Position numbers and translations under genes: made by a program. A stretch of 64,000 nucleotides of DNA from Micromonospora sp. WMMD882 (GTDB taxonomy: Bacteria; Actinomycetota; Actinomycetes; Mycobacteriales; Micromonosporaceae): positions 4,526,001-4,590,000 of the forward strand of contig NZ_CP114903.1 of the NCBI RefSeq assembly GCF_027497255.1, written 5' to 3'. Of this stretch, positions 33,858 to 37,049 are shown piece by piece (within the stretch, counting starts at the first letter, position 1; every line of letters begins with the position of its first letter). Below the pieces are notes generated by a model. The model saw only the letters and a program-made list of their open reading frames with translations. It made no database searches and was not told the origin of the DNA.

Positions 33858-36800
33858 TCACATCAGCCGTAGCTGCCGGTTCCTCGGGCGGGCCGGCTCC
33901 GCCGCGCCGAACCGTTCGAACAGTCCCGGATCGATCGCGTCCAGGAACGGCGACGGGCGGACCTCCCGTTCCGGCCCGTGCCGGGCGCGGCGGGCGGCGT
34001 GGCTGACGTAGAGCCGGTCCTGGGCGCGGGTCAGCCCGACGAAGAACAGCCGCCGCTCCTCGGCGACGTCGTCGTCGCTGGGCGTCGAGCCCGGCCAGCG
34101 CAACGGCAGCAGCCCGTCCTCGCAGCCGACCAGGAAGACCACCGGGAACTCCAACCCCTTCGCGGCGTGCAGGGTGAGCAGGGTGACCGCCTCGGCACGC
34201 GGGTCGAGCGCGTCCACCTCCGCGCCGGTGGCGAGCTGCGACAGGAACAGCGGCAGGTCGTCGCCGCAGCGTCGGGCCAGCGGGGTGAGCAGGTCGACCG
34301 CGGCCCGGACGTCCTCCGGGCGCACCGAGCCGGTGGCATCCAGGGTGGGCGCGGCGTACCGGTCGGCGAGGAGCTGCCCGACCAGCCGTACCCGGGCCGG
34401 CAGCCCGCCGTCGAGGCCGTCGGCGTGCCGCAGCTCGCGGGCGATCGCCGCCACGCCGGGCCGGTCCCGCAGCCGGTCGTGCGACCGCTTCTGCACCGGC
34501 ACGTTCGCCCGGCTCAGCGCGTCCAGGATCGGGGCGGCCTGGGCGTCGGTGCGGTACAGCACGGCGATGTCCGAGAAGGAGAGGGTGGTGCTGCGCCCGT
34601 CGATCCGTCCGGAGTCCAGCGACCGGTGGGAGAGGCCGCCGACCAGCTCGTCGACGGTGCGTACCACGAAGTCGGCCTCGTCGGCGACGGACGCCGCCGG
34701 GTACCGGCCGACCAGCGGGGCCTCCGGGTCGAGCCGGGCCGGATCCAACCGGCGGCCCCGGACCAGCGACGACGGCGCGATGGCCTGCGCCGCCGCGGCC
34801 AGGATCGGCGCCGACGAGCGGTAGTTGCGGTTCAGCCGGACGGGCCGCGCGTCGGTGAAGTCCTCGGCGAAACGCAGGAAGTACCCGACGTCCGCGCCCC
34901 GGAACGAGTAGATCGCCTGGTCCGGGTCGCCGATCGCGCAGAGGTTGCCGTCGGCCGGGCTGAGCAGCCGCAACAGCTCGTACTGGACCGCGTCGACGTC
35001 CTGGTACTCGTCCACGAAGATCCACCGCCAGCGGTCCCGGTACCGCTGGGTCAGCTTGCGGTCGGCGCGCAGCAGCCCCACCGGCAGGCTGAGCAGCTCG
35101 TCCAGGTCGACGAGCTGCTGCTTGCGCAGCAGCGCGGTGTAGGTGGCGATGTCGTCGCCGGCCTCCGCGCGGGCGGCGGCGCGCTCGACGTCGTCGGCGA
35201 TCCGGAAGTCCGGCGGCAGGCCGGCCGCCTCGGCGTTCTCCCGCAGGATCGCCAACCCGAGGGAGTGGAACGTGCCGACGGTGACGTCCTCGGCGACCGG
35301 CCCGAGCAGCCCGTCGAGGCGGTGCCGCAGCTCCTCGGCGGCCCGCCGGGTGAAGGTGATCGCCAGGCAGGTCTCCGGGAAGACGTTCAGCTCGGCGCAG
35401 AGGTACGCGATCCGGTGGGTCAGCGTCCGGGTCTTGCCGGTGCCCGGCCCGGCCACGATCAGCAGCGGACCGCCCGGCGCGGAGGCGGCCACCCGCTGCA
35501 TCGCGTCCAGCCGGTCCAGCAGGCCGGTGCCGACCTCCTCCATGCCGGCGAGCATCGGCTCGAACGGCTCGTGCGGCGACGGCGCGGCCGCGATCGGCGG
35601 GACGGGCGGCGGGGTCTCCCGGGTCGGCCGTCGCCTCGGCTCCGCCGCCGCCGGCTTCGTCCGGGCCGCCGGCTCCTTCCGGGTCACCCGCTGCTTCGGT
35701 ACGGGCACCTCGAACAACGCGTCGGCCTGCGGTTTCCCGGACGTACGCAGCTCGTCCGGGTCGAAGAGCGTGATCACGCCGTACTCGCCGTCGAAGCCCG
35801 GCACCCGGCGCACCTCGCCCCGGCGCAGCCGGCCGATGCCCTCGGCGAGCAGCTCCCCGCCGACCCGCGCGATCTCCGGCAGCGGGGTGCTGGTCAGGAT
35901 CTCCAGCTCCGGGCCGAGCCCGGCGACCAGGTCGTTCAGTTTCCCCTCGACCCGCTTCGACCGGGGGCCGACCTGGTTCAGCTCACCGAGGATCTCGGCC
36001 AGCGGCACCAGGTGGGTGACGTCGCGGGCCTGCGGCGGCCGGTGCCCCTCGGGCCGGTCGGCCAGCTCCTCGACCCGGCTGAGCACGCCCACGGTGAGCG
36101 GTTTCCCGCACTCCGGGCAGCGCCCGCCGGCTGCCCGGGTCCGCTCCGGGGACCAGCTCACCCCGCACAGCCGGTGTCCGTCGGCGTGGTACTTCCCCTC
36201 CTCCGGGAAGAACTCGATGGTGCCGGCCAGCCCGTCCCCGGTGCGCAGCGCCTCCCGGATGGCGAAGTAGTCCCGCCCGGTCGCGAAGACCGTGGCCTCC
36301 CGGGCCAGCGCCGGCGGCGAGTGGGCGTCCGAGTTGGACACGAGCTGGTACCCGTCCAGGCTGCCCACCCGCCAGTTCATCGCCGGGTCCGAGGAGAGCC
36401 CGGTCTCCACGGCGAAGATGTGCCCGGCCAGGTCGGCGTAACAGTCGGCGATCGCGTCGAAACCGGACTTCGAGCCCAGCGCCGAGAACCACGGCGTCCA
36501 GATGTGCGCCGGGACGAGGTAGCCGTCCGGGCTGGCCTCCAGGGTGATCTCCAACAGGTCCCGGGAGTCCAGGCCGAGGATCGGCCGACCGTCCGAGGCG
36601 ATGTTGCCGATCCGGGCGAGCGTGGCGTTGAACCGCTCGACCGCGTCCAGATCCGGCAGGTACACCAGATGGTGCACCTTACGGGTGCGGTCGTCCCGCT
36701 TGTAGATCGTGGAGATCTCCACGCTGAGCAGGTACCGGACCGGGTCGGCCTCGGCCGCGTCGGCCAGCCGGGACGGCAGCCGCCGGGCGATGTCCCGTTC

Positions 36801-37049
36801 CGCCTCCGGGCTGAGCCGGTACAGGCCCGGCTCGGCCGGACGCAGCGTCTCCCGCAGGTGGTCGTACCAGGCGGGGTGGGTGAAGTCGCCGGTGCCGAGC
36901 ACGCCGATGCCCTTACGCCGGGCCCACCAGCCGAGGTTCGGCAGGGTCAGGTCCCGGCTGCACGCCCGCGAGTACTTCGAGTGGATGTGCAGGTCCGCGA
37001 CGAACGGCGAGGGACCGCCGGAGGAGGGTACGGCGCTGAACAGGGGCAC
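33858..37049 (-). CDS. fusion of endonuclease Q-like PHP nuclease and UvrD/PcrA helicase
   Basis: A 1,063-residue protein. Residues 1-430 match TIGR00375/endonuclease Q: ADLHIHSKYSRACSRDLTL, GVLGTGDFTHPAWYDHL, LSVEISTIYKRDD, VPAHIWTPWF, SNSDAHSPPALARE, and a zinc ribbon GGRCPECGKPLTVGVLSRVE (about 300-320). EndoQ cuts DNA 5' to deoxyuridine, hypoxanthine or abasic sites. After a Pro/Arg linker (about 450-500) comes a full superfamily 1 helicase: AGPGTGKTRTLTHR (Walker A, Lys about 539), FVDEYQDVD (about 675), GDPDQAIYSFRGAD, NYRSS, LLTLHAAKGLEFPVV and VGLTRAQDRLYVSHA. GTG at 37049 follows AGGA at six bases; a GTG at 37064 is possible. All nuclease and helicase motifs look intact. Confidence 0.92.
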   Translation of the reverse strand: MPLFSAVPSSGGPSPFVADLHIHSKYSRACSRDLTLPNLGWWARRKGIGVLGTGDFTHPAWYDHLRETLRPAEPGLYRLSPEAERDIARRLPSRLADAAEADPVRYLLSVEISTIYKRDDRTRKVHHLVYLPDLDAVERFNATLARIGNIASDGRPILGLDSRDLLEITLEASPDGYLVPAHIWTPWFSALGSKSGFDAIADCYADLAGHIFAVETGLSSDPAMNWRVGSLDGYQLVSNSDAHSPPALAREATVFATGRDYFAIREALRTGDGLAGTIEFFPEEGKYHADGHRLCGVSWSPERTRAAGGRCPECGKPLTVGVLSRVEELADRPEGHRPPQARDVTHLVPLAEILGELNQVGPRSKRVEGKLNDLVAGLGPELEILTSTPLPEIARVGGELLAEGIGRLRRGEVRRVPGFDGEYGVITLFDPDELRTSGKPQADALFEVPVPKQRVTRKEPAARTKPAAAEPRRRPTRETPPPVPPIAAAPSPHEPFEPMLAGMEEVGTGLLDRLDAMQRVAASAPGGPLLIVAGPGTGKTRTLTHRIAYLCAELNVFPETCLAITFTRRAAEELRHRLDGLLGPVAEDVTVGTFHSLGLAILRENAEAAGLPPDFRIADDVERAAARAEAGDDIATYTALLRKQQLVDLDELLSLPVGLLRADRKLTQRYRDRWRWIFVDEYQDVDAVQYELLRLLSPADGNLCAIGDPDQAIYSFRGADVGYFLRFAEDFTDARPVRLNRNYRSSAPILAAAAQAIAPSSLVRGRRLDPARLDPEAPLVGRYPAASVADEADFVVRTVDELVGGLSHRSLDSGRIDGRSTTLSFSDIAVLYRTDAQAAPILDALSRANVPVQKRSHDRLRDRPGVAAIARELRHADGLDGGLPARVRLVGQLLADRYAAPTLDATGSVRPEDVRAAVDLLTPLARRCGDDLPLFLSQLATGAEVDALDPRAEAVTLLTLHAAKGLEFPVVFLVGCEDGLLPLRWPGSTPSDDDVAEERRLFFVGLTRAQDRLYVSHAARRARHGPEREVRPSPFLDAIDPGLFERFGAAEPARPRNRQLRLM

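Follow-up and report, generated by a model that had tools for sequence, protein, structure and literature searches.

What might a bacterium gain from carrying an endonuclease Q (EndoQ)-type nuclease and a UvrD-type helicase in a single protein? This question is raised by a gene of Micromonospora sp. WMMD882, which lies at 33858..37049 of the 64,000-nucleotide stretch of DNA analysed here (the window, in whose positions all coordinates are given; all features described lie on the minus strand). We found that a single reading frame with a GTG start at 37049 encodes an EndoQ-UvrD fusion of 1063 amino acids. An earlier sequence-only reading of this DNA had claimed this fusion, which is hereby confirmed as real, while the interpretation attached to it proved half right; it was also silent on a clamp-binding-like motif at the C-terminus, on the spread over many phyla and on the apparent single origin in our sample. 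As judged from sequence and predicted structure, the protein is a chain of nuclease, flexible linker, UvrD-type motor whose 2B region is small, and a peptide of the beta-clamp-binding consensus. We propose, with a probability of roughly 0.55, that these parts form a housekeeping, clamp-tethered enzyme of alternative excision repair, which would "nick and peel" damaged strands beside the repair initiated by uracil-DNA glycosylase (UDG).

Four parts in one chain

The nuclease (residues 14-437, 35739..37010) comprises a PHP domain, a zinc ribbon and a C-terminal part, and belongs to the EndoQ fold. Its PHP motif I, DLHIHS (residues 19-24, 36978..36995), is the same as D6-S11 of EndoQ from Pyrococcus furiosus (PfuEndoQ), and a HMMER alignment pairs H21, H23, D55, H126, H182, D241 and H243 with Pfu H8, H10, D42, H84, H139, D193 and H195, respectively. 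These seven ligand or catalytic residues are unchanged in all 50 rows of A3, the alignment of fusion proteins used for all invariance counts (it includes loci L051 and L083 and excludes L086 and L089). The metal ligands had been called intact from the sequence alone, and a comparison with solved EndoQ, in which a loss of PHP residues was looked for, bears this out: all alignable catalytic residues are kept. The putative zinc-ribbon ligands H292, C295, C311 and C314 (36108..36176) align with Pfu C249, C252, C268 and C271 and likewise occur in all 50 rows; three cysteines are kept in this His-Cys-Cys-Cys site, and its first position holds histidine, which is also able to bind zinc, where a four-cysteine ribbon has Cys.

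In PfuEndoQ, activity depends on E76, H84 and H139, and normal bases are shut out by H139, G169 and S171 (PMC8307549). The corresponding base-pocket residues of the fusion, H182, G217 and S219, are invariant in A3. Together with the invariant alignable ligands, they argue against a nuclease that has lost its lesion specificity and now serves recombination or plasmid-like processing as part of a general nicking helicase. Such a loss could be suspected from the score of 148.2 bits against TIGR00375, an NCBIfam hypothetical equivalog with a curated cut-off of 326.6, which places the nuclease on a diverged branch of EndoQ, outside the TIGR00375 equivalog. Lesion-nicking activity is, however, known from a bacterial EndoQ, that of Bacillus pumilus (cited in PMC6202378), and we consider a loss of specificity very unlikely. 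Among standalone relatives, the EndoQ of locus L120 (P0242, named Candidatus Hakubella) carries the altered PHP motifs FDYIHS and SCSDSHS, yet ends in QLSLL, and two of its 120 best-listed standalone relatives have DLQIHS at motif I.

Behind the nuclease lies a linker (residues 438-506, 35532..35738) that is predicted to be disordered, with predicted local distance difference test (pLDDT) values below 50 at residues 437-507. Its length and sequence vary among the rows of a 70-row alignment, which leaves out five fused loci truncated at contig ends (L078, L087, L103, L108, L111) and four fused loci outside the motif pattern used (L051, L083, L086, L089). The helicase that follows (residues 507-1051, 33897..35531) is of the superfamily 1A (SF1A) UvrD/PcrA type and shows the UvrD-like fold and motifs Q, I, II, III, IV, V and VI, which are near-invariant among the fusions; in motif I (Walker A), GPGTGKT (residues 534-540, 35430..35450), G536, G538, K539 and T540 are invariant in A3. 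To call this helicase "complete", as had been done, is an overstatement. The 2B region is reduced to 96 amino acids, compared with 177 in PcrA of the same genome (L002), the 1B region to 58 compared with 103, and the stretch from motif VI to the C-terminus to 60 compared with 160. Across the 50 fusions, 2B measures 71-129 and 1B 31-106 amino acids, so that a small 2B is general and a short 1B is not. Monomers of Rep, PcrA and UvrD are held in check by their 2B subdomain, and the small size of 2B here suggests a motor that may be less restrained than these. A family insertion, GGLSHRSLDSGR (residues 804-815, 34605..34640; G804 and G805 invariant in A3), is conserved in the fusion helicases as GGxSFxSxDSGR and absent from the aligned PcrA stretch.

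The chain ends in QLRLM (residues 1059-1063, 33861..33875), which fits the beta-clamp-binding consensus. This QLxLF-like peptide stands at the extreme C-terminus of a tail (residues 1052-1063) that is disordered in the predicted model, and it should be accessible. The pattern Q[LM]x[LF][FLIMV] occurs within the last 25 residues of 66 of the 73 complete fused frames and at the very end of 63; the seven exceptions are L041, where the fusion frame breaks off and a second helicase frame lies behind it, and six frames with forms such as QPKLI, QQRLF and QMSFDF. Among 1071 control frames of at least 300 amino acids from the same loci, spurious frames included, two have the motif within the last 25 residues and none has it at the end, and shuffling the last 40 residues of the fusions yielded a mean of 0.021 terminal motifs, with a maximum of 1 in 1000 rounds.

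A clamp tether as such is not a new idea, because archaeal EndoQ binds PCNA via a C-terminal PCNA-interacting protein (PIP) box, with stimulation of nicking, and clamp motifs have been reported in bacterial EndoQ (PMC4858679); a clamp motif at the helicase end of fusions was not found described in our literature search. In the standalone relatives of the L120 EndoQ, a QxxLF-like ending within the last nine residues is present in 117 of the 120 best-listed proteins, most commonly as KQKTLF, and 12 of the 120 fit the strict pattern. Fusions carry QETLF or a close form, Q-x(2,3)-[LM]F, inside the linker in 29 of 32 Micromonosporaceae rows and in 32 of all 70 rows. The form in the window, QADALF (35712..35729), is possibly a relic of the clamp motif at the former C-terminus of a standalone EndoQ, which would have been retained internally after fusion.

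Proposed nicking and peeling of a damaged strand

EndoQ nicks DNA at uracil, cutting 5' of the lesion so that the nick has 3'-OH and 5'-phosphate ends (PMC4357722); the downstream strand therefore carries the lesion at its 5' end. The fusion could make use of this geometry in three steps. First, QLRLM would anchor the protein to the sliding clamp DnaN, while the EndoQ part flips out a uracil, hypoxanthine or abasic residue and makes a nick with a free 3'-OH on its 5' side. Second, the motor would load at the nick on the opposite strand. Helicases of the UvrD family have 3'-to-5' polarity, and a motor moving in this direction would travel away from the 3'-OH, leave it behind and displace exactly the lesion strand, which would be peeled into a 5' flap. 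Third, a DNA polymerase would fill in, a flap nuclease would trim the flap and ligase would seal the strand. The most natural model for such a protein is one in which nicking and strand displacement are coupled, and the polarity is consistent with it, although nicking, peeling and clamp binding by the fusion are activities that we infer.

Several observations weigh against this proposal. The nuclease can persist without the motor, because four loci stand alone or lost the helicase (L096, L117, L118 and L119; no helicase frame was present within the 10-13 kb fetched for the last three). The relative placement of nuclease and helicase in the predicted model is uncertain (predicted template modelling score 0.57). 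The stretch around the essential Pfu E76 failed to align with the fusion nuclease, in which E111 is probably its counterpart, and two alphaproteobacterial assemblies (L086 and L089, outside the rows of the 50/50 ligand count) have DVQIHS for DLHIHS, with ligand H21 replaced by Gln. The restraining role of 2B and the helicase polarity are, moreover, carried over from the UvrD family only.

The first two of these points could also be explained by a motor that does not peel, but clears proteins from the DNA, opens it so as to expose lesions or moves the nuclease along it, leaving strand displacement to a DNA polymerase: the nuclease-only loci suggest that the motor is dispensable for the role of the nuclease, and a predicted model without a fixed arrangement of the two parts would suit such a division of labour. 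UvrD-family motors, furthermore, often displace proteins. Several findings argue in the opposite direction. With one genome per species, at least 591 stretches encode a relative, and among the best 80, which were kept, 78 encode the fusion in one frame (L096 is unfused and L080 cut by a contig end), in ten named phyla; this fused share is biased upward because the 80 loci are the best by similarity to the EndoQ of the window protein. The helicase motifs are near-invariant, the polarity fits peeling, and a general motor is already available, because a separate PcrA-like match exists in all 39 genomes tested. We therefore regard a non-peeling motor as rather doubtful.

A nick-and-peel enzyme, if real, may be part of a larger picture, which we put forward tentatively. 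The fusion would represent a widespread, undescribed excision pathway in one polypeptide, which arose once and then spread across phyla. Its clamp-anchored enzyme would find a deaminated or abasic site, nick there and unwind the damaged strand with a motor freed by the small 2B, and the Micromonosporaceae fusion may grip the dimeric clamp by two motifs, one behind each enzyme part.

Spread, origin and genomic setting

The fusion is a widely conserved variant of known enzymes and not peculiar to this genome. A protein search scored the 7994 candidates with the most shared words, all of which matched; the 120 matches listed, one of them the window's own protein, measure 1059-1085 amino acids, and those with a species name all belong to Micromonospora. 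The fusion is annotated already, under changing NCBI names (UvrD-helicase domain-containing, AAA family ATPase or TIGR00375 family protein, with partial ones called endonuclease Q family), and PF27218, which is absent from the Pfam copy searched, is precomputed on most listed homologues. Five nuclease-only proteins of 412-454 amino acids (P0244, P0254, P0333, P0338, P0221) are publicly named "DNA helicase UvrD", a name probably carried over from fusions.

Record titles and tree labels assign the loci to Actinomycetota, Acidobacteriota, Planctomycetota, Pseudomonadota, Binatota, Myxococcota, Elusimicrobiota, Melainabacteria, Poribacteria and Chloroflexota, and these names may sometimes be wrong because many loci are metagenome assemblies. 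One record, titled Rhodococcus rhodnii NRRL B-16535 (L082, 12.4 Mb genome), has an EndoQ that is nearly the same as the Kibdelosporangium one (L081) and may be mislabelled. In the following draws, fusion was judged by frame length only, except at loci inspected. An even draw of the phylum gave the EndoQ profile in 7 of 396 genomes, the window's genome included, and TIGR00375 in nine, two of them marginal; a Streptomyces-like genus had a relative in 4 of 199 genomes. Micromonosporaceae carry it in 127 of 150 genomes, seven with best frames of 464-750 amino acids and the others with at least 979. Within the phylum, the gene is thus near-core in this family and otherwise patchily distributed.

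A branch with a support of 100/99 sets apart 24 standalone rows in a 91-row maximum-likelihood tree of the EndoQ part; 59 fused rows stand on the opposite side of this branch, with eight unfused ones nested among them. The split was kept at 100/100 when two long rows were removed (23 standalone rows). The standalone rows all derive from one query, and the tree holds neither Bacillus nor archaeal EndoQ. Within this sample, the simplest reading of the sequences is a single fusion, followed by three or four splits or losses. At a Streptomyces-like locus (L116:2834-6094), one in-frame stop in the linker divides the nuclease and helicase frames, and the helicase frame ends in QLKLM.

The sequence-only reading had presented the fusion as an alternative to UDG repair and as especially relevant to GC-rich genomes. 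The latter link is not supported, since 9 of the 78 fused frames lie below 45% GC, the lowest at 32%. A replacement of UDG as the uracil-removal route would be conceivable for an enzyme whose known relatives nick at uracil (PMC4357722), but UDG-superfamily proteins, assigned at the superfamily level only, are present in each of the 38 genomes tested (37 carry the fusion and one, L096, an unfused EndoQ), with four hits in the window's own genome, and AT-rich genomes carry the fusion too. Replacement is accordingly disfavoured and appears extremely unlikely.

EndoV (PF04493) was matched in 21 of 39 genomes, six matches being weak and partial, and a replacement of EndoV by the fusion is not supported; the window's own genome (G000) gave no EndoV match in the search that found it in 21 of the 38 others. 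Twenty-two of the separate PcrA-like matches in the 39 genomes exceed the cut-off, and a loss of separate PcrA was rejected. In one metagenome assembly (G418), the best PcrA match (274 bits) falls in a 1119-amino-acid frame, which is probably the fusion itself, the rest being only fragments.

The fusion is a syntenic, near-core chromosomal gene in Micromonosporaceae. Its upstream neighbour in the window is a metallophosphoesterase (PF00149, 37135..38382), which provides context only and stands outside the proposed machine. Of the 32 family loci with any neighbour match (L032-L061, L066, L068), 31 carry a relative of this enzyme immediately upstream of the fusion, and the same 32 loci have MoaA-like genes in 29 and an AAA ATPase in 25 cases; some gaps are due to contig ends, and the L057 locus is rearranged. 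No operon partner conserved across phyla was seen among 37 diverse loci: the largest neighbour clusters are, by their coordinates, shadow frames of the fusion, and smaller ones (an ABC-type ATPase in six loci, several genes common to L062, L064 and L076) are taken as local.

This setting also bears on a possible function as an anti-phage or anti-plasmid enzyme against DNA with uracil or other altered bases. Bacterial EndoQ may participate in antiviral defence according to a review, PADLOC helicase models such as GajB match the fusion, and its distribution outside Micromonosporaceae is patchy. The PADLOC matches are, however, confined to the helicase and reflect the UvrD superfamily, and the gene keeps its chromosomal order in the family. 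No match was found on plasmids, phages or IMG/VR viral contigs, with neighbours not scanned for defence genes. A mobile or defence gene was rejected on these grounds, and we consider the defence role improbable.

Likeness to known systems

Our literature search, which mostly lay outside subscription papers, found no experimental study of the EndoQ-UvrD fusion, so that a mention in print is possible; the fusion is unmentioned in the excerpts of PMC4357722, PMC6202378, PMC11354406, PMC4858679 and PMC8307549. EndoQ is described in the excerpts of the cited papers as mainly archaeal, with few bacterial cases. Our data show EndoQ relatives in many bacterial phyla; at almost all of the closest loci retained they are joined to a motor, and they bear clamp-binding-like tails. 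If nick-and-peel repair is true, bacteria would possess an excision route independent of glycosylases, in which a single chain combines nuclease, helicase and clamp tether, and the events after the EndoQ nick would become testable. The fusion would also offer a natural test of whether shrinkage of 2B activates a UvrD-type monomer.

Compared with EndoQ from P. furiosus and Thermococcus kodakarensis (PDB 5zb8, 7k30-7k33), to which identity is approximately 35% over aligned stretches, the fusion has His instead of Cys as first zinc ligand, adds a helicase of about 550 residues and carries a beta-clamp-like motif in place of a PIP box. Standalone bacterial EndoQ (TIGR00375; the B. pumilus and B. 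subtilis enzymes, known from the literature only) is the same nuclease, but lacks the helicase and has its clamp motif immediately after the nuclease; the His-Cys-Cys-Cys zinc pattern of the fusion recurs in the 120 standalone relatives listed for the L120 EndoQ. Relative to PcrA, UvrD and Rep, the motor has a 2B region of about half the size, a short tail and the added GGxSFxSxDSGR insertion, and it scores far under their NCBIfam equivalog cut-offs (363.8 against 911.2 bits for PcrA, 302 against 1144.45 for UvrD, 286.3 against 951.45 for Rep). AddAB, RecBCD and AdnAB likewise combine a UvrD-type motor and a nuclease in one chain, according to structural matches that mostly concern the helicase part and leave other folds possible. 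These enzymes process double-strand ends with a RecB-type nuclease at the C-terminus, whereas the fusion carries a PHP lesion endonuclease at its N-terminus.

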